Positions 3,593 to 36,512 of a stretch of 36,535 bases of DNA are shown in pieces. This stretch comes from Nitrospirota bacterium (GTDB taxonomy: Bacteria > Nitrospirota > Nitrospiria > Nitrospirales > Nitrospiraceae): contig JACQEY010000239.1 of assembly GCA_016200355.1 (NCBI GenBank), forward strand, positions 1 to 36,535, in the 5' to 3' direction. The notes under the pieces are model-generated. The model searched no databases and was not told where the DNA came from. It saw only the letters and a program-made list of their open reading frames with translations. The translations under genes were made by a program, and so were the position numbers. Position 1 is the stretch's first letter; every line of letters begins with the position of its first letter.

Positions 3593-3740
3593 TTTGGTTT
3601 ATCTGGTCCATCTGGATTGTTTTGTCTATCTGGTTGATTTGGTTTATCTGGTTAGTTTCGTTCAACCAAACAAAGGAGACAAACCAAATAAAGCAAATAA
3701 CAGTCTTCTCCCCCTGGCGGACTTTTCCCGCATCCTGCTA
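3593..3740 (+). repeat. Nonamer inverted-array intergenic element, copy A (right terminus retained)
   Basis: Left arm of about 7 degenerate 9-bp units (TTTGGTTTATCTGGTCCATCTGG...), core GTTAGTTTCGTTCAACCAAACAAA, right arm, then CTGGCGGACTTTTCCCGCATCCTGCTA. Confidence 0.85.
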
Positions 3741-4134: not shown

Positions 4135-4234
4135 CTTGTTCATTTGGTCTATTTGGTTTGTCTTGTTTATTTGGTTGAGCCAGACCGCTCGATGAACTAA
4201 ACAAACCAAATGAACCAGACAAACCAAACAAACC
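4135..4234 (-). repeat. Nonamer inverted-array intergenic element, copy B (minus orientation)
   Basis: Reverse complement reads GGTTTGTTTGGTTTGTCTGGTTCATTTGGTTTGTTTAGTTCATCGAGCGGTCTGGCTCAACCAAATAAACAAGAC, aligning with copy C. Confidence 0.85.
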
Positions 4235-4243
4235 GGGTTTGCC

Positions 4244-4864
4244 TCAGGATGGCAACTTTGTTCCTTCGAGCACCTCTCGGAGTTCTTGATACACCATCGT
4301 AAGCCGGGCATTCTCCAGCCGATACGCAAATACGACTGTAATGGCTCCTGAGAGTAAAAAAACAACTCCCAGCCCTACAACCCCGAGCGCCAGCACCACT
4401 CCACCGGATGCCGTCATTTCTCCCTCGATGAACAACGAGACCACAGCCCCCACCGTACCCACCGCCACCACGGCAAACCAGATACCGGTGAGAAGAGCCG
4501 AGGACCAGGGAGTGAGCTTTCGGCAGAGCACCGCGAGCGCATCGCCTTCCGGAGACAGGGAGATCAACCCTTTCAATGGCCACAGGGTTCGAAAGCCTAG
4601 AGCGAACAGCCGATATTTCTGACGAATCACAATCTGGTTCAGATCCTGGTACAACCGAGCGGTGCCATGCGGCAATGTCAAGAAACCGCCGGCATCGAAC
4701 CGGTCGGCTAGCTGCTTCATGGTCGTATGCGTGAATCGATCGTGTGTGCGGGCAATTCCACATCCGTACCGGCTCGCATCCGGCGTGAGACGCATGAAGT
4801 AGAACCAGTCTCCAAGAATGAGGCCGAGACACAACGCACCGGCGAAGAGACCAGCGAAAATCAT
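4244..4864 (-). CDS. Hypothetical membrane protein
   Basis: 206 aa with N-terminal and C-terminal hydrophobic helices (MIFAGLFAGALCLGLILGDWFYFM; LLTGIWFAVVAVGTVGAVVSLF; VVLALGVVGLGVVFLLSGAITVVF). Confidence 0.65.
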   Translation of the reverse strand: MIFAGLFAGALCLGLILGDWFYFMRLTPDASRYGCGIARTHDRFTHTTMKQLADRFDAGGFLTLPHGTARLYQDLNQIVIRQKYRLFALGFRTLWPLKGLISLSPEGDALAVLCRKLTPWSSALLTGIWFAVVAVGTVGAVVSLFIEGEMTASGGVVLALGVVGLGVVFLLSGAITVVFAYRLENARLTMVYQELREVLEGTKLPS

Positions 4865-5100: not shown

Positions 5101-5838
5101 ATGGATTTAGCGAAGATCGAGCGCGTCTATACGTCGTACGCCAAGATCTACGATCGGGTTTTCGGGAAAGTGTTTCACGAAGGGCGCCAGTCGATCATTC
5201 AGAATTTGAACGCCCAGCCTCAAGAAAAAATACTCGAAGTGGGAGTCGGAACCGGCTTGGCTCTGCCGATGTACCCCCGCCATTGCCAGATCGTCGGTAT
5301 CGATTTTTCAGAGGGCATGCTGGACCAAGCAAAACAGCGAGCGGTAGAACACCAGATGGGGCACGTGCAACTGCACCGAATGGATGCCGGCGAGATGGAA
5401 TTCAAAGACGATAGTTTCGATACCGTCGTCGCGGCCTACGTTGTTACCGCTGTCCCCGATTACCGCAAGGTGGTCAGCGAAATGATCCGCGTCTGCCGAC
5501 CCGGCGGACGGATCATCATGCTGAATCACTTCGCCAACGACAATAAGGTCATCGCCGCCGTGGAGAGAGTCCTTTCCCCTCTCACGAAGCACTTAGGGTG
5601 GCGCACGGACTTGGCACTCCAGACCGTGCTGGACGGGACGCCGCTGCACGTCGCCAGGAAGCAAAATGTGAATCCGTTGCGGCTCTGGGCCTTGGTGGAA
5701 TGTGTTAACAAAAAGAACAAGAACGTGAACGGCAAGACACACATCAATGGCGTGAAAAACGGCAACGGCACCGCGGCCTACGCACACATCAACGGCACAC
5801 GCCTGTCAGAACAGGCCAGCGGACAAGCATTGGGCTAA
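5101..5838 (+). CDS. Class I methyltransferase, PmtA-like (phosphatidylethanolamine N-methyltransferase-like), with Asn-rich C-terminal tail
   Basis: Begins YTSYAKIYDRVFGKVFHEGRQSIIQNLN; motif I ILEVGVGTGLALPMYP; IRVCRPGGRIIMLNHF. Confidence 0.8.
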   Translation: MDLAKIERVYTSYAKIYDRVFGKVFHEGRQSIIQNLNAQPQEKILEVGVGTGLALPMYPRHCQIVGIDFSEGMLDQAKQRAVEHQMGHVQLHRMDAGEMEFKDDSFDTVVAAYVVTAVPDYRKVVSEMIRVCRPGGRIIMLNHFANDNKVIAAVERVLSPLTKHLGWRTDLALQTVLDGTPLHVARKQNVNPLRLWALVECVNKKNKNVNGKTHINGVKNGNGTAAYAHINGTRLSEQASGQALG

Positions 5839-5958
5839 CTGGTTTGTTTGGTTGATCTGGTCTATTTGGTTTGTTTAGTTCATCGAGTTGGTCTGATTCA
5901 ACCAAACAAACGAGACACACCAAATAGCAGCCTTCTACCGCCTCGCCTTCACGCTCTA
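5839..5958 (+). repeat. Nonamer inverted-array intergenic element, copy C
   Basis: CTGGTTTGTTTGGTTGATCTGGTCTATTTGGTTTGTTTAGTTCATCGAG...TTCAACCAAACAAACGAGACACACCAAATAGCAGCCTTC; GG dinucleotides recur every 9 bp. Confidence 0.8.
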
Positions 5959-13172: not shown

Positions 13173-15839
13173 TCATGATTTGCTGGATGGTTCCGACCTC
13201 GCAAACAAATCTCCTTCTCGCCCTTGGACGATAATCTCTCCTCGCTCCGCATCCAAGCTAACTTGATCACCTTCCTTGAGCCTGCTGGTAATGCCTGGCA
13301 CATTCGCCACTGTCGGCAATCCGTATTCGCGGGCAATGATGGCCCCGTGCGAGAGTGTCCCGCCCATCTCGGCGACCAGCCCTGCTGCTATACCAAACAA
13401 TGGTGCCATGCCGGGGTCGATAACTGGGACCACGAGAATGTCGCCACGGCAGACTCGGCTCCAATCTTCCATCGATCGGACGAAACGGATCGGTCCCACG
13501 ACCTGTCCCCCACTGATGGGAATACCACGCAGTATCCCCTCCGAAGCCTCAACGGAAGAAGCGTCCTTGCCTCGGACCATATCATTCCAATCCTGAATCG
13601 TATCTGGAACACTGGTCGCGGCATAACGGTCCCGCTCGGCCCGGCGAGCCTGAATGATCCCTTGCCAGTGACTTGATCCTGTGGCTAACAGTTCTGGGCG
13701 TTCCTCGATCTTGAAGTAAAAAATATCTTCCTGCGACGAGAGTTGCCCCCGTTCGACCAGCCATTCACCCAAGCGAAGCAGGAGGCTACGTGCCGCTGCC
13801 GAGTAGTACATCAGATGATGCCGGTTCGCCTCCCGCAGGGCGAAGAACCGGCATAGCCGTCGATACCACCAAGAAAAAACGGCCCACCGATGGAGTCGCC
13901 ATCCGAACCTGGCGCGAATCTCTGCGAGCGCCTGTTCCCGTACCATTGTTTGGCGCTGAAGAATGTCCGCCGGAGTGGCGCTGGTTGGAGCCAGAATCTG
14001 CGTTCGCAATACCGTCAGCAGCAACTCGGGCCGATCTGCGAACCGAGGCGCCATGACATCCGACTCACCGACCCCTCGGTGGCCATAGTCGTCGAGGTAC
14101 CGGTTAAAGGCACGCAGTACGTCGGTTCCATCGAGCTTTTGACGAACCTCGATCGGGTTCCACCTCTCTGCGGTGAACAGCGAAGTCACTGAAGGGTCAC
14201 GTCGGACCATGTCCGCTATTTCCGCCAACCGGACAATCTGTTGCGCGCTGATCGCCGCCGCCTGGCCCTGCAAGGCCCCGTTCAGCAATGCTCTCCAGTC
14301 TTCGCCTAACCAGCGAGGCAGCAAGCCGCCCAACGCCTGCAAACACTGCGACACGCCTCCCGCAATGGCAAACGTCAGTTCGTGTTCATCAAGCCATTGT
14401 CCGATGGCATCGAGGCGCAGGACGATGTCTTCGCCGGAGAGAGTCCGAAGTCGATCGGCGCGATGCTCGGCCGCCATCGCTTTCATGTACGTAAACCAGG
14501 CCGGCCCGTAGTGCACCGCCTTTCTCATCTCGGCCATCATCACGACGCCGGCACGGGCGAGCGCGAACCACCCGAGCGGGCGAGCCTCCGGCACCCTGCC
14601 AAGGATTTCCCCTCCCATCTGCTCCACCAACAAGGAGGGATCTCCCCGTAGTTGTGTGATGAGGGAATGAAACAGCGTCATATTGATGTAGGGCCGTCCC
14701 TGGAACGTGCGGACCGATGAGATCCCTTCGGGAATTCGGCAGCCCAGGCGCCGATAGGGTAAAATAATGTGGCGCTCCATGAACAGCTCGAGAAACGACA
14801 GCCCAAGTGGGCTCGGCAGTTCCGGCATGGTCTCTTTGAAGTTGGCTCGCGACCATTCGCAGTCATCATTGGTCAGCGGCGTGGATCGAGTCAGAGTCGA
14901 GATGGGACGGGCTTGGAGCAGCCATAGTCTATGATCGTCGTAGAGCCATTCGATATCCATTGGATGCCCGAATGTCTTTTCAATCTGCTTGGCCGTACGG
15001 GCCAGGTCAAACAGTTGGTTGTCCGACAACGTTGCGCGCCCAACTGCATCCTGCGACAGCGGCACTTCGCAAAGACCCTGGCCGGTCCCCCGCAACGCCT
15101 GAGTCTGCCTGCTGATCATCCGTTCGCTGATCCGGTTGGGCTGACTGTTCTCGGCCATCTCGACCACATACTGGTCTGGGGTTGCGCGCCCATCGACGAG
15201 GGCTGCCGCAAGCCCCGCAACCGCATTGATCATCACCTGGGTCGTTCTGCCTGTGAGAGGATGGACGGAATAGGCGACACCGGCTGCTTGCGCCTCTAAC
15301 AGCGGTTGGATTACGACGGCCATGGCGGGAGGAGCTCCGCTCAATCCTGAGGCCGCATGATAATTCAGAACCCGCTCATCCCAGATCGACAGCCAGAGAT
15401 CCTTCACCGCCAAGCCCATTTCCTTCAGCGTGATACCAAGGCGCGTACGGTAGACTCCGGCAAAGCTCGCCTGCGCTCCATCCTCGTTCGTCGCAGACGA
15501 CCTCACCGCCCACAACCCATGCGATGGAAGATCCAACCGTCGCACCTGTTCGACGATCTGCGCCGTCAGTTCAGCGATGCCGTAGTTCCGAATGATGGTG
15601 TGACAGTGGGAAAGTATCCGTTGGCGTTCGACTCCGGAGGAATGCAGGGCAGCCTGCCACTGTTCTGCTGGAGAAAAGTCCGGCGCGCGAAGCGCGTGAT
15701 CGTAGGCCTCCGTCGTCACGCAGAATCCGGAGGGAACAGGGAATCCTCCGGCGAGCAGACGCGCTAAGCCTACGGCTTTCCCCCCAACAAGAGATGGTTG
15801 AGTGCAGGCGGCCAAGGGAAGAAGGAGAGGGCGATCCAT
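13173..15839 (-). CDS. PEP/pyruvate-binding phosphotransferase (PEP synthase / rifampicin phosphotransferase-like architecture)
   Basis: VGGKAVGLARLLAGGFPVPSGFCVTTEAY; WAVRSSATNEDGAQASFAGVY; C-terminal GGTLSHGAIIAREYGLPTVANVPGIT catalytic-His domain. Confidence 0.9.
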   Translation of the reverse strand: MDRPLLLPLAACTQPSLVGGKAVGLARLLAGGFPVPSGFCVTTEAYDHALRAPDFSPAEQWQAALHSSGVERQRILSHCHTIIRNYGIAELTAQIVEQVRRLDLPSHGLWAVRSSATNEDGAQASFAGVYRTRLGITLKEMGLAVKDLWLSIWDERVLNYHAASGLSGAPPAMAVVIQPLLEAQAAGVAYSVHPLTGRTTQVMINAVAGLAAALVDGRATPDQYVVEMAENSQPNRISERMISRQTQALRGTGQGLCEVPLSQDAVGRATLSDNQLFDLARTAKQIEKTFGHPMDIEWLYDDHRLWLLQARPISTLTRSTPLTNDDCEWSRANFKETMPELPSPLGLSFLELFMERHIILPYRRLGCRIPEGISSVRTFQGRPYINMTLFHSLITQLRGDPSLLVEQMGGEILGRVPEARPLGWFALARAGVVMMAEMRKAVHYGPAWFTYMKAMAAEHRADRLRTLSGEDIVLRLDAIGQWLDEHELTFAIAGGVSQCLQALGGLLPRWLGEDWRALLNGALQGQAAAISAQQIVRLAEIADMVRRDPSVTSLFTAERWNPIEVRQKLDGTDVLRAFNRYLDDYGHRGVGESDVMAPRFADRPELLLTVLRTQILAPTSATPADILQRQTMVREQALAEIRARFGWRLHRWAVFSWWYRRLCRFFALREANRHHLMYYSAAARSLLLRLGEWLVERGQLSSQEDIFYFKIEERPELLATGSSHWQGIIQARRAERDRYAATSVPDTIQDWNDMVRGKDASSVEASEGILRGIPISGGQVVGPIRFVRSMEDWSRVCRGDILVVPVIDPGMAPLFGIAAGLVAEMGGTLSHGAIIAREYGLPTVANVPGITSRLKEGDQVSLDAERGEIIVQGREGDLFARSEPSSKS

Positions 15840-15855
15840 TGAACTGGATACTACC

Positions 15856-16076
15856 TAGCAGGCTGCGGAAAAACTATGGGGGTGCGCCAGAACTTCACTG
15901 GTCCGCATGTCTGGGACAAGTCTGGTCTGTCTAGTCCATCCGGTTGGTCTGGTTCGTTTTGTGTATCTGCTTAATTTGGTTCATCTGGTTAGTTTCGTTC
16001 AACCAAACAAATGAGACAGACCAAACAAACCAAATAACGGTCTTCATACGCTGGCGGGTTTTTTCAGCGCCTGCTA
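15856..16076 (+). repeat. Nonamer inverted-array element, copy D, complete with terminal inverted repeats
   Basis: Left TAGCAGGCTGCGGAAAAACTATGGGGGTGCGCCAG; right CTGGCGGGTTTTTTCAGCGCCTGCTA; nonamer arms and conserved core between. Confidence 0.85.
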
Positions 16077-17444
16077 CAGCACGAGGAGAAGGTAAAGATC
16101 ATTCACGTTCGTACCGGTGGGACCGGTGACGATGAGCTGATGGAGCTGCTTCAATGCAGGATAGGTATTGTGGCATTTCAACGCCCCCTTGAGATCCACC
16201 GAGAGACCTTGTGCGCGCGCCAAGGTCTTGCCATCGATCACGGCGCCGGCCGCATCGGTTGGACCGTCGGTGCCGTCGGTGCCGATCGCCGCCACCCACA
16301 CCTTGGTCAGACCGGCGATCTCCAGAGCGGCAGCCACGGAGAATTCTTGCGCCCTCCCGCCAGTTCCCTTTCCGGTGACGGTCACGGTGGTTTCCCCACC
16401 GGCCACTACACAGCAGGGCCTCTGTAGCGGTTTGCCTTTGCGCACAATGTTTTTCGCCAGGGCACCAAACCGCTGCCCTTCTTCGCATGCCTCTCCTGTT
16501 AAAGCCGACCTAAGCACAAGGGTTCGCAGACCTGCCTCTCTGGCCGCGCGGGCCACAGCCGTAACGGCCGCTACGTTGTTCCCGATGATATGATGATGGA
16601 CGCGACGAAACAGAGGGGAGCCTGGTTTCGGAGTCTCACTCACGAGTCCCTGGCATCCACGGTCAAGATGCCGACGCACGCGTTGAGGGACAGCCTGCCA
16701 AATGCGATAGCGTTTTAGAATCGCGACCGCGTCTTGATAGGTTGTCGGGTCTGGGGCTGTCGGCCCTGAGGCAATGGCGCTGAGGTCGTCGCCCAGCACA
16801 TCGGACAGAATCACGGTTACAACGGTGGCCTCGGTCGACTCGGCGAGACGTCCGCCTTTAATGCGCGAGAGATGTTTCCGAACGGTATTGATGTCGCCAA
16901 TACTCGCCCCGCATCGCAAGAGTTTCTGTGTGGTCCGCTGCTTGTCGGCCAGCGTAACCCCTGCGACAGGTGCAGGCAGTAAACTGGACGCACCGCCCGA
17001 CAGGAGCACGATCAAGAGATCGTGTCGACCAAGTTCTGTCGCCATGGCACGGAGCCTGGCCGCCGCCCGCTGACCGGACCGATCGGGAACTGGATGACCG
17101 GCCTCCACCACGACGATCTGTTTCGTAGGCAAACCATGGCCGTGCTTGACCACGACAAATCCGCCCTGCAGCCGAGGTCCCAGCCGCTGTTCTATTGCCT
17201 GGGCCATGGAGGCCGTGGCCTTTCCAGCCCCGAGCACGACCACACGCTCATAGCGACGCAAGTCATACCGACGCCGGCCGATGACCAGCTCCTCGCCGTT
17301 TCTGGAGATGGCGCGACCGACCGCCTTCCGGGCATCGACCGCGTCCAGCCCTCGAACGATGAGTTTTTTCAGAAGTGGCCGGATAGCCGCGCGAGGCAGG
17401 CTGAGGTCAAGGTTAAGGTTGAGCGAAGACCTGACTTTCCTCAT
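16074..17444 (-). CDS. Glycerate 2-kinase (MOFRL/GckA family)
   Basis: LGAGKATASMAQAIEQRL, LIVLLSGGASSLLPAPVAGVTL, VLSDVLGDDLSAIASGPTAPDP, AIGTDGTDGPTDAAGAVID. Confidence 0.93.
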   Translation of the reverse strand: MRKVRSSLNLNLDLSLPRAAIRPLLKKLIVRGLDAVDARKAVGRAISRNGEELVIGRRRYDLRRYERVVVLGAGKATASMAQAIEQRLGPRLQGGFVVVKHGHGLPTKQIVVVEAGHPVPDRSGQRAAARLRAMATELGRHDLLIVLLSGGASSLLPAPVAGVTLADKQRTTQKLLRCGASIGDINTVRKHLSRIKGGRLAESTEATVVTVILSDVLGDDLSAIASGPTAPDPTTYQDAVAILKRYRIWQAVPQRVRRHLDRGCQGLVSETPKPGSPLFRRVHHHIIGNNVAAVTAVARAAREAGLRTLVLRSALTGEACEEGQRFGALAKNIVRKGKPLQRPCCVVAGGETTVTVTGKGTGGRAQEFSVAAALEIAGLTKVWVAAIGTDGTDGPTDAAGAVIDGKTLARAQGLSVDLKGALKCHNTYPALKQLHQLIVTGPTGTNVNDLYLLLVL

Positions 17445-32728: not shown

Positions 32729-32758
32729 GTATCAAGTCAAGCAACGATCCCATCGCGC
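32729..32758 (+). repeat. Direct repeat copy 1 (TCAAGTCAAGCAACG family)
   Basis: GTATCAAGTCAAGCAACGATCCCATCGCGC. Confidence 0.8.
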
Positions 32759-32841
32759 GTCATTGACCCACCAAGTGAGGCTTGCTAATATGAGCACGTC
32801 GTCGTGTGTGAGCCACGATGTCCGCTCTTGGAGGGTCGTCC

Positions 32842-33066
32842 ATGCGCTACGAACGAATCAGCATCGATCCGCAGATCTGTAGCGGCAAACCCTGTATTCG
32901 TGGGACTCGAATTATGGTGACGAACATCCTCGGGTTGATCGCCGGGGGCTACACGAACGAGCAGATTCTTCACACCTACCCGGAGCTGACCCGCGAAGAT
33001 CTTGCCGCCGCGCTGGACTATGTCAGTCACGTGGTCGACGAAGACAAAGTGATTCCTCGTGCCTGA
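32842..33066 (+). CDS. DUF433 family putative antitoxin
   Basis: MRYERISIDPQICSGKPCIRGTRIMVTNILGLIAGGYTNEQILHTYPELTREDLAAALDYVSH is a canonical DUF433 pattern. Confidence 0.92.
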   Translation: MRYERISIDPQICSGKPCIRGTRIMVTNILGLIAGGYTNEQILHTYPELTREDLAAALDYVSHVVDEDKVIPRA

Positions 33067-33436
33067 GGCACTCACCGGTCTGCTGGATCAAAATGTCCCC
33101 CGTGCAATCGCTCACTGGCTCCGCGCCCGACGCGCACCGTGAACGATCTACCATACCTCAGATGTCGCCCTGTCGGGACGTCCCGATGCAGAAGTCTTTG
33201 CCTGGACGCAGCACCGACACGCCATCATTGTGACCTTCGACGAAGACTTCGCCGATCAACGGTCCTTTCCCATGGGCTCCCACGCAGGGATCATCCGGCT
33301 CCGAGTCTGGCCGACCACCATCGAAGAAACCCAAGACGCGCTCGAGCGACTCCTCGCAGAAGTGCCCGATGCGGAACTCGCGGGGGCACTCGTCATCATC
33401 GACCGTGACGCGATTAGGGTCCGTCGGGGTCAATAA
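33059..33436 (+). pseudogene. DUF5615 (PIN-like) putative toxin interrupted by in-frame TGA at 33140-33142
   Basis: GTG start overlapping the antitoxin stop: VPEALTGLLDQNVPRAIAHWLRARRAP*TIYHTSDVALSGRPDAEVFAWTQHRHAIIVTFDEDFADQRSFP...RVRRGQ*; one frame apart from a single TGA. Confidence 0.82.
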
Positions 33437-33530
33437 TCTGTAGGCTATGTCATTGGGACGTTCTGCAACATCTGTCATGTCGTGTGACCGTGGAAGCATG
33501 AATCGACCGGGCGACTAGAAGCAGCAGGTC

Positions 33531-33557
33531 TCAAGTCAAGCAACGACCCCACCTCGC
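33531..33557 (+). repeat. Direct repeat copy 2 (TCAAGTCAAGCAACG family)
   Basis: TCAAGTCAAGCAACGACCCCACCTCGC. Confidence 0.8.
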
Positions 33558-33564
33558 ACGCCCC

Positions 33565-33598
33565 TTGAGTCTGTGAAAATTATGCGCTATATTATGCG
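33565..33598 (+). promoter_or_regulatory. Putative promoter and tandem operator of the Phd/RelE-type module
   Basis: TTGAGT - 17 bp - TATATT; direct repeats ATTATGCG at 33579-33586 and 33591-33598 overlap the -10. Confidence 0.5.
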
Positions 33599-33624
33599 TA
33601 CAATTTATCACAATGAGGTGCGCC

Positions 33625-33918
33625 ATGGCCGTCGCATACAAGAAAGATGAAATACTCAGCGCTTCCAAAGTAGCGCGTTCCTTCGGACAGGTATTGGCTG
33701 ATCTAAGCGGTAAACGCCGCCGCCGCGTGGCGGTCGTCAAGAACAACCACTTGGAGGCGATTCTCCTCCCCATTGAGGACTACGAAACGATGGCGGAGGC
33801 CCTTGCCATTCTGGAACATCTTGAGATCTATCGTCTCGTACAGGAACGGAAAGGCAAGAAACGTCCCAACACCATTAGCCTCGATGCCTTGCTGAAGGAA
33901 CAACGCCTTGCCGTATAG
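33625..33918 (+). CDS. Phd/YefM-type antitoxin
   Basis: ILSASKVARSFGQVLADLSGKRRRRVAVVKNNHLEAILLPIEDYETMAEALAILE. Confidence 0.88.
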   Translation: MAVAYKKDEILSASKVARSFGQVLADLSGKRRRRVAVVKNNHLEAILLPIEDYETMAEALAILEHLEIYRLVQERKGKKRPNTISLDALLKEQRLAV

Positions 33919-34216
33919 AGTCACCCTTACGGCGGAGGCTGCCGACGACTTTCGGCACCTCGATGGTTCCCTGAAAAAACAGGTCGCCAAGCAGCTTAAA
34001 AAGCTCGAAACGTCTCCCCTTCTCGGCGAGCACTTGGGAAATAGGGCAGGTCTCGACCTCACAGGCTATTACAAGCTCTATGCGGCAAAGAAGGGGGTCA
34101 GAATCGTCTACCGCATCATTGAACAGAACATAATTGTGGAAGTGGTGGCGATCGGGAAACGTGAGGACATGAGCGTCTACCAAACCTCGCTCAAGCGAAT
34201 CAGCTCAACATCCTGA
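33908..34216 (+). CDS. RelE/ParE-superfamily toxin
   Basis: TTG start overlapping the antitoxin; YRVTLTAEAADDFRHLDGSLKKQVAKQLKKLETSPLLGEHLGNRAGLDLTGYYKLYAAKKGVRIVYRIIEQNIIVEVVAIGKRED. Confidence 0.92.
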   Translation: MPYRVTLTAEAADDFRHLDGSLKKQVAKQLKKLETSPLLGEHLGNRAGLDLTGYYKLYAAKKGVRIVYRIIEQNIIVEVVAIGKREDMSVYQTSLKRISSTS

Positions 34217-34236
34217 TTAATCACCCTCAGCCAGGC

Positions 34237-34258
34237 AAGACAGATCCGCATCTGTCTT
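34237..34258. other. Perfect 9-bp inverted repeat with 4-nt loop downstream of the toxin gene
   Basis: AAGACAGAT-CCGC-ATCTGTCTT. Confidence 0.6.
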
Positions 34259-34393
34259 AACGATGCGTTGGCGCGCATTGCCGCGACTGGTGATGTGGTA
34301 GATCGCGTGGAAAATTCAATTCGCAGCGGACGGGCCATGGTGGGATAGTCCACCGATGAGCATGTCGTTTTGTAAGACCCACCTGGTGGCGCA

Positions 34394-34416
34394 GTATCAA
34401 GTCAAGCAACGCCCCA
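34394..34416 (+). repeat. Direct repeat copy 3 (TCAAGTCAAGCAACG family)
   Basis: GTATCAAGTCAAGCAACGCCCCA. Confidence 0.8.
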
Positions 34417-34574
34417 GGTGATCCACCCAAAAGCCTTCTTTCCATGCTAATCCCAGCAGGATTGAACGCGAGTGCCAGGGAGGAATGGGTCCATCTCTAG
34501 GGCAAACTCGCTCCCAAGTTGGGGTGCTTTCCCATGGGGAAAGGGGTATTCTGCAGCGGTCTATTGGATTGCTC

Positions 34575-36512
34575 ATGGAAAATATCGAAGCTATCGAAAA
34601 GCGTCTCTGGTCTAGCGCCGACAATCTTCGCGCGAACAGCAACTACGCCAGCAACGAATACTTCCTGCCCGTTATGGGCCTCATCTTCCTGCGCCATGCC
34701 TATAGCCGATATCTAGCGGTTAAGGACAAGCTTGAAGCGAATCTCCCCAAGCGCGGTGGCAAGCCGCGTTCCCTGGCCAAAGAAGATTTCTCGGGCAAAG
34801 GTGCAATCTATCTCAGCCCAGAATCGCAGTTTGACTATTTGGTTGAGCTGCGAGATGCAGACGACCGTGCGGCTGCGATCATCCATGCCATGGAGACGAT
34901 TGAGAAGAGCTACGAAACCCTCAAAGGGGTGCTCCCCAAGGCAGAATATCGAGAGCTGGACAATGATGTTATCGGTCAGCTCCTACGCACGTTCAACGAT
35001 CCAGCTCTGAAGAGCGCCTCGGGCGATGTATTTGGTCGCATCTACGAATACTTCCTCACAGGCTTTGCCGACCAAAAGGCCCATGACAACGGTGAGTTCT
35101 TTACGCCGGTGTCGCTGGTGCAGATGATCGTAAACGTCATCGAGCCGGACCATGGCACAGTGTTGGATCCGGCCTGTGGTTCAGGTGGCATGTTTGTTCA
35201 GAGCGCTCATTTCGTCGAACGTCTGCACCACAATCCAACCGAAGAGCTGACCTTCTTTGGAATGGAGAAAAATGCCACAACGATTCGCCTTGCAAAGATG
35301 AATCTGGCCGTGCATGGCTTGGAAGGAAACATCCAAAAGGCGATCACATACTACGATTGGGAAACCCATGAATTAGTGGGCAAGGCCGACTTCGTCATGG
35401 CTAATCCGCCATTCAACGTGGATGAGGTAGATGCGGAGAAGATCAAGAATGATCTGCGCTTGCCGTTCGGTCTACCCGGTGTGAATAAGGCCAAGAAGGT
35501 CTCCAACGGCAACTACCTCTGGATTTCCTATTTCCATTCGTACCTAGGAGCAAAAGGCAGAGCAGGGTTCGTCATGTCCTCGCAGGCCAGTAGTGCGGGC
35601 CATGGGGAGGCTGAAGTCCGCCGCAAGCTCATCGAGACTGGCGACGTGGATGTGATGATCGCCATTCGCTCAAATTTCTTCTACACCCGCACCGTCCCCT
35701 GCGAACTGTGGCATTTCGACAGAGGGAAACCTGTCGGCCGCCGAGATCAGGTACTGATGCTTGATGCCCGCAACGTTTACCGGAAAGTCACACGGAAGAT
35801 TTATGATTTCTCTCCCGAACAGTTAGCCAACCTCTCGGCGATCGTGTGGCTCTATCGTGGCGAAGCAGGCCGCTTCGTTGACATAGTCCAACGCTACCTC
35901 GGCCGTACACTCATCGAAGCGGTTAAGCTCACTGAGCTGGTCATGACGTTCCATAAAGCCTATGACGCTATGGCCGATGCGACAATACCTTTCCTCAGAG
36001 CCGTTCACAAGAACCCAACGCTGAATGATCTGGCAAAAGAACGAGAAGATGCAGCCAAGGCGTGTTTCCAGGAACTTGAAGTATGGATTGCCCGCATCGC
36101 CAAGGATTGGAAGAAACCTTGTGAACAGAAGCTCGCTGCCCAGAAAAAACGGACTACGGAGCTTGATGCATTGGCTACGGCCTGTCGGGACCTCGTCAAG
36201 GATGTGGATCTTGTTTGCAAGCTCGCGGCGCGATTGGTGGATACCGCTGAGAAGGACGCTGGGGCACGGGAACAAGAAGCTTGGGACGGCCGCTTAATCA
36301 ATCGTCTCGAAAAAGAGTTAGACGCTCACCGTAAAGAGTTGGTCGAACAGCTCAAACAGACTGCCTATTTCCAACGACAGGCCCATTGGCTCCTCTCGCG
36401 CTTCCCTGACGCGAAGCTCGTACCGGTGCCAGGGCTTTGCAAAGTTGTCACACGCGCCGTGATCAAGGCAGCTGACTGGGTTCTACCCCGATATCACGGA
36501 CGGTTGAGTTAA
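34575..36512 (+). CDS. hsdM: Type I restriction-modification system methyltransferase subunit (HsdM)
   Basis: MENIEAIEKRLWSSADNLRANSNYASNEYFLPVMGLIFLRHA; GEFFTPVSLVQMIVNVIEPDHGTVLDPACGSGGMFVQS; VMANPPFNVDEVD (NPPF). Confidence 0.95.
   Translation: MENIEAIEKRLWSSADNLRANSNYASNEYFLPVMGLIFLRHAYSRYLAVKDKLEANLPKRGGKPRSLAKEDFSGKGAIYLSPESQFDYLVELRDADDRAAAIIHAMETIEKSYETLKGVLPKAEYRELDNDVIGQLLRTFNDPALKSASGDVFGRIYEYFLTGFADQKAHDNGEFFTPVSLVQMIVNVIEPDHGTVLDPACGSGGMFVQSAHFVERLHHNPTEELTFFGMEKNATTIRLAKMNLAVHGLEGNIQKAITYYDWETHELVGKADFVMANPPFNVDEVDAEKIKNDLRLPFGLPGVNKAKKVSNGNYLWISYFHSYLGAKGRAGFVMSSQASSAGHGEAEVRRKLIETGDVDVMIAIRSNFFYTRTVPCELWHFDRGKPVGRRDQVLMLDARNVYRKVTRKIYDFSPEQLANLSAIVWLYRGEAGRFVDIVQRYLGRTLIEAVKLTELVMTFHKAYDAMADATIPFLRAVHKNPTLNDLAKEREDAAKACFQELEVWIARIAKDWKKPCEQKLAAQKKRTTELDALATACRDLVKDVDLVCKLAARLVDTAEKDAGAREQEAWDGRLINRLEKELDAHRKELVEQLKQTAYFQRQAHWLLSRFPDAKLVPVPGLCKVVTRAVIKAADWVLPRYHGRLS

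Follow-up and report, generated by a model that had tools for sequence, protein, structure and literature searches.

Element D, a 215-bp element lying between two genes of a Nitrospirota bacterium, is very probably a decayed but complete MITE of the IS5 family that was moved in trans and whose interior seems to be exchangeable hairpin cargo. The ends of D are the ends of a ~1.3-kb IS5-type IS found in related Nitrospiraceae. Moreover, D sits in a CTAG duplication of which one base has decayed, and orthologous loci without D exist. Judging from these sequences, the transposase that spread D was most likely an ordinary one of the IS5 family, with CTAG as the 4-bp target that it duplicates.

Location and anatomy of element D

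The window (the whole stretch of DNA that was analysed, 36,535 nucleotides) is the entire contig C101 of the MAG G000, which comprises 2.94 Mb in 242 contigs and is 92.6% complete. D lies between two ORFs on the minus strand, a PEP-synthase-like ORF (13173-15839; PPDK_N and PEP-utiliser domains) and a glycerate kinase ORF (16074-17444; DUF4147 and MOFRL), the latter being 80-85% identical to its counterparts in named Nitrospira/Nitrospiraceae MAGs, which places the host in this lineage. The gap between these ORFs is 234 bp; D, at 215 bp and without transposase coding capacity, takes up almost all of it. In another part of the window (32729-34423), a methylase gene of a type I restriction-modification system (34485-36512) is preceded upstream by three 30-bp direct repeats GTATCAAGTCAAGCAACG... 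at intervals of ~800 bp.

The first-pass annotation had described a structured unit of 221 bp (15856-16076) bounded by TAGCAGG termini, with TAGCAGGCTGCGGAAAAACT as its left end and GTTTTTTCAGCGCCTGCTA as its right end. Both ends, the TGGTTTRTY arm, the core TCTGGTTAGTTTCGTTCAACCAAACAAA, and the complementary arm were all found as described. The outermost TAG at either end, however, is part of the target and does not belong to the element. Given a 4-bp duplication, the first base of D is C15859 and the last is G16073, so that the element proper (CAGG...CCTG, 15859-16073, no strand assigned) measures 215 bp; these limits were drawn from the sequence, from empty orthologous sites, and from termini common to autonomous IS5-family elements. 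The flanking target copies (likewise without strand) are CTAG on the left (15855-15858), identified from the CTAG empty sites in the relatives L034 and L035 and from the 4-bp flanks of IS copies, and CTAC on the right (16074-16077), which is CTAG with one silent base decayed. The stop codon of the glycerate kinase gene is the right-hand TAG (reverse complement of 16074-16076), within the right target copy.

The left terminal inverted repeat, CAGGCTGCGGAAAAAC (15859-15874, plus strand), is identical to the IS ends. The right terminal repeat (16058-16073, minus strand) matches the left at 12 of 16 positions, in agreement with the initial description of the right end as an imperfect reverse complement of the left. 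Next comes a subterminal segment (15875-15924, plus strand); of the first 68 bases of this end, 61 recur in the L033 element described below. It is followed by the long arm of degenerate 9-bp units TGGTTTRTY (15925-15991, plus strand), which keep a 9-bp register. The core or loop region TCTGGTTAGTTTCGTTCAACCAAACAAA (15984-16011, plus strand) was assigned by sequence and is conserved in an anchored family alignment. The complementary arm, also built of 9-bp units (16001-16041, minus strand), is shorter than the TGGTTTRTY arm.

Copies of the element and its modules

If D were mobile, as first proposed, further copies should occur, and they do. A search with D returned 40 related places in the same genome at E<=1e-18. 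Arrays of the 9-bp unit were found at 75 loci in a sample of 1,054,727 bp, consisting of the window and 37 other contigs or contig parts that were partly picked for carrying matches, so that densities in it are not genome averages. At the same threshold, a single array match was obtained in one simulated sequence that had the length and dinucleotide content of the sample. The copy number of the D-type structure is far beyond chance. Both arms were present in 62 of the 75 array loci, with the TGGTT arm first in every one. The terminal-repeat pattern gave 117 matches at <=3 mismatches, compared with 0 for the reversed pattern. At the threshold used, terminal repeats were recognised at both ends of 10 arrays, at one end of 19, and at neither end of 46. 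Subterminal MITE sequence was recognisable in 30 of the 75 arrays (compared with 3 when random flanks were used), and 38 arrays had neither terminal nor subterminal sequence. Three related copies lie within the window itself, none with an assigned strand: copy A (3595-3740) is a nonamer hairpin with only the right terminal repeat (to 3740), and copies B (4136-4244) and C (5831-5922) are nonamer hairpins without terminal repeats.

The terminal repeat was present in all 32 genomes of the genus that were searched; at <=2 mismatches, each had between 5 and 185 matches, and the reversed control gave none. Most of the genus and a few sister genera were rich in nonamer matches, and most other genera had none; for this pattern the reversed control matches the same arrays and is an invalid null, and only between-genome contrasts were used.

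The interior bounded by these terminal repeats varies. Among 40 TA-flanked terminal-repeat pairs from G000 and the loci fetched from relatives, 22 held a GCGGCCTTGCTGGACGG-type hairpin, 8 a nonamer hairpin, and 10 another interior. Because mixed interiors occur in shared terminal repeats, the nonamer element is one variant of a larger MITE family. A second module, GTTCTCGCATCGCTCAGAGGCTCAACGTACC...GCTGCGGCCTTGCTGGACGGCC, was seen inside the same terminal repeats in L037, L041, L043, and others; it forms 53 clusters in the 1.05-Mb sample and is commoner than the nonamer module among complete elements.

The ends of D are shared with autonomous IS5-family elements

A DUF772 search led to L108 (genome G021) and L105 (genome G020), elements of ~1.33 kb whose inverted repeats TAGCAGGCTGCGGAAAAAC are perfect or nearly so. 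In L108/L218 the inverted repeat, with CTAG, is perfect over 21 bp, and the 372-aa ORF, which contains the Pfam domains DUF772 and DDE_Tnp_1, is uninterrupted. When compared with the NCBIfam model NF033581 (IS5; cut-off 140 bits), the L108-type transposase scored 280.5 bits; L105, L108, and L125 passed at 236-280 bits, and L110 fell just under at 136. Scores below the cut-off were also obtained by these transposases against the IS1182 model, so the IS5 subgroup of the partner is not firm. Relatives of the L108-type transposase were found in 64 of 175 family genomes (E<=1e-10). No transposase of the L108/DUF772 type was detected in G000, which speaks against the reading favoured here, although this MAG is 92.6% complete in 242 contigs and repeats are often lost from such assemblies.

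The first 19-20 bases of D, counted from TAG, are identical to the ends of L108, L218-L222, L224, L225, L240, L253, L254, and others. Beyond ~20 bp, D did not match the autonomous IS copies, and interior homology to the IS is absent. Autonomous transposons that share the terminal repeat, which the first-pass annotation had suggested looking for, are therefore these ~1.3-kb IS5-family elements in relatives; its view of D as a non-autonomous element with terminal repeats also agrees with an element of 215 bp that has no transposase ORF and has the ends of an IS5-type IS. Related IS5/IS1182-like IS with a terminal repeat CAGGCTGTTGACAAAC (L110, L112, L119, L120, L264, and L265) were also located in CTAG.

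Target duplication and choice of target

D is flanked by CTAG and CTAC (one base decayed), and the orthologous empty site reads CTAG. Identical 4-bp flanks were found in 26 of 32 IS copies, and four of these were TTAG, CTAA, CTAT, and ATAG. The 4-bp flanks were unequal in 6 of the 32 IS copies and in 23 of 43 short pairs, which must reflect decay if the duplication is 4 bp. Given that CTAG is palindromic and is the commonest target, MITE copies alone could not separate a 2-bp from a 4-bp duplication. A duplication of TA only was first favoured on the basis of 23 pairs, and was dropped when the IS copies with TTAG, CTAA, CTAT, and ATAG duplications were considered. The TA targeting that had been proposed for D thus gives way to a 4-bp duplication of the CTAG type. 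In Paracoccus, IS5-group elements measure 1282-1485 bp, have 16-18-bp terminal repeats, and duplicate 4 bp, except for one that duplicates 6 bp, whereas IS427-group elements mostly have 2-bp duplications (PMC3281130).

CTAG was observed 967 times in the 1.05-Mb G000 sample, compared with 3995 expected from base composition, and is therefore about fourfold under-represented. In the same sample, terminal repeats exactly abut the TAG stop of a called gene in 39 cases, and 90 of the 967 CTAG sites are such TAG stops (genes being simple ORF calls). CTAG is scarce, and its TAG can serve as a stop codon; for these reasons, many of the insertions fall exactly at gene ends, with frame and stop kept. 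Selection against insertion inside genes contributes to this gene-end pattern.

Empty sites, scars, and turnover of the interior

The glycerate-kinase/PEP-synthase junction is element-free in four relatives, reading ...CTCTAGGTAGTATCC... in L034 and L035 and ...CCTATAGGTACTATCC... in L031 and L032. The occupied junction in the window reads CTGTAG-CAGGCGCTGAAAAAA...TTTTTCCGCAGCCTG-CTAGGTAGTATCC. As the orthologous junctions in four relatives are empty, D is an insertion; as the glycerate kinase stop is TAG in both the occupied and the empty state, the insertion left the gene intact. The junction differs between relatives and is not identically conserved, as would be anticipated for a mobile element.

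At the same site, L033 carries an element that agrees with D at 61 of 68 bases of its end; among 154 ends compared in all, D included, the next best match to the L033 element was 53 of 68. The interior of the L033 element is another hairpin, GTTCTCGC...GCGGCCTTGCTGGACAGCC. With the same end and a different hairpin at an orthologous site, the interior seems exchangeable. The simplest reading of these sequences is that D and the L033 element represent one ancestral insertion whose interior was later swapped, although they may be two independent insertions of related elements.

At the site of another complete copy (C206:17039), G026 reads CTAGCAGGCTGCTAG, and near-identical short sequences were found in G027 and G028. 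In all three, the two target copies survive together with the tips of the two terminal repeats, and the interior is gone; such a scar would be the expected remnant of a deletion between the CTGCT motifs of both ends, or of excision. At the site of copy C231, relatives differ by more than the element, and this is not a clean second empty site; no alignable junction was found for the C134 site.

In relatives, the gaps of copies B and C are either empty or occupied by nonamer arrays or by other hairpins that bear the same terminal repeat. For gap B, about half of the compared relatives have nonamer arrays of differing unit content and of about 91-158 bp in length, suggesting that the insertion is old and that its units have turned over. 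In gap C, L199 has no element, and other relatives have a different module. A further short-period hairpin, GTGAAATGTGAGATGTGAAA / CATTTCACGTTTTACGTTTCACC, was noted beside the same terminal repeat in L202 and L203 (orthologous to 4136-4244 and 5831-5922); its unit forms 23 clusters in the 1.05-Mb sample.

Alternative explanations

We considered whether D could have been mobilised, as the first-pass annotation had suggested, by an IS630/Tc1-mariner transposase with duplication of TA. TA flanks both ends of D, duplication of TA alone fits the unequal short pairs, and IS630-type transposases were found in 20 of the 32 genus genomes. However, no IS630-type (DDE_3) transposase was found in G000, none of 30 loci fetched around the IS630-type transposases of the genus was bounded by the D terminal repeat, and the IS that bear this repeat belong to the IS5 family and include non-CTAG 4-bp duplications. 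IS630/DDE_3 was dropped as the partner on the first two grounds, and mobilisation of this type is extremely unlikely. The IS630-type loci L070 and L086 have inverted repeats beginning CTAGAGCATTTTT that are unrelated to D. It is also improbable, if somewhat less so, that D is a conserved structured RNA or a bidirectional terminator that selection maintains at gene ends. Depending on the species, one and the same gap is empty or holds a nonamer array or another hairpin; no Rfam family matched the window at the gathering score, and a search of D for terminator- or promoter-like sites found none. Array contexts (40 codirectional, 12 divergent, and 10 convergent) follow those of all intergenic gaps (307, 94, and 89, respectively). 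What speaks for a structured RNA is the strong fold of D, both strands of which, as single-stranded RNA, fold better than all 200 shuffles (z -4.9 and -4.1), together with the presence of nonamer arrays at gap B in about half of the compared relatives. Nevertheless, when arms were swapped among 55 oriented copies, no preference for a copy's own arm was seen (p 0.16, 0.90, and 0.81 for three arm lengths); as own arms pair no better than swapped ones, there is no evidence for selection maintaining individual hairpins.

Another possibility, which we regard as unlikely but less so than either of these, is that the hairpin of nine-bp units forms a separate repeat family, which spreads by its own means and was captured by IS5-type MITEs, D being a hybrid. 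The 46 arrays with no terminal repeat at either end, and the 38 that lack subterminal sequence as well, are consistent with this, and from one species to another the number of array matches does not follow that of terminal repeats (134 terminal repeats and 53 array matches in G004, compared with 91 and 554 in G019). On the other hand, the subterminal MITE sequence kept by 30 arrays (3 with random flanks) and the eroded ends of several copies without terminal repeats argue against a separate family, and bare arrays showed no boundary motif or duplication of their own. We would likewise give only a small chance to the view that the hairpin is a self-standing Nitrospiraceae repeat family, in which units amplify and hitch in and out of IS5-type MITE frames, the frames are carriers with exchangeable cargo, and arrays persist and turn over after frame decay.

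Discussion

On the reading that we favour, in which D is an IS5-family MITE, an IS5-type transposase acting in trans would have bound the 16-bp terminal repeats and pasted D into CTAG, duplicating 4 bp. The interior hairpin of degenerate 9-bp units would then be swappable cargo, the same frame holding other hairpins elsewhere and at the L033 site. Lying between co-directional genes, D would be transcribed as a long hairpin, and RNase III may, by analogy with Correia elements, cleave such a transcript. The two co-directional genes are ~18 bp apart in L035, which lacks the element, and D, by separating them, could alter their joint transcript.

The partner of D resembles the IS5 group of the IS5 family in its ~1.3-kb length, 16-bp terminal repeats, 4-bp duplication, and DDE transposase; D itself has no transposase and has only the ends in common with these IS. 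RUP and MITEs of the IS630-Spn1 type are small non-autonomous elements with TA at their ends, to which D may be likened, but the partner of D is of the IS5 family and the duplication is 4 bp. D may also be likened to the BOX elements of Streptococcus pneumoniae, modular small repeats with a variable number of internal units; their sequence and unit length differ from those of D, and we know of no IS5 ends in them. Transcripts of the Correia repeat enclosed elements of Neisseria are cleaved by RNase III (PMC10969869). Correia elements, like D, are short, hairpin-forming MITEs present in many copies near genes, whereas the interior of D consists of 9-bp units and no promoter was found in it. To our knowledge, Correia elements and D have no sequence relation. 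No paper describing the present repeats was found among open-licence full texts; they represent a new MITE family of a known kind.

Nitrospira are central nitrite and ammonia oxidisers, many of them known from MAGs alone. The present findings name an abundant source of Nitrospira repeats, whose terminal repeat occurs in every one of the 32 genus genomes searched, together with its IS5-type partner and its target. CTAG targeting explains the frequent insertions at TAG stop codons. Finally, at one orthologous site hairpin modules have apparently been exchanged within a single MITE frame, an evolutionary process that can be put to the test.
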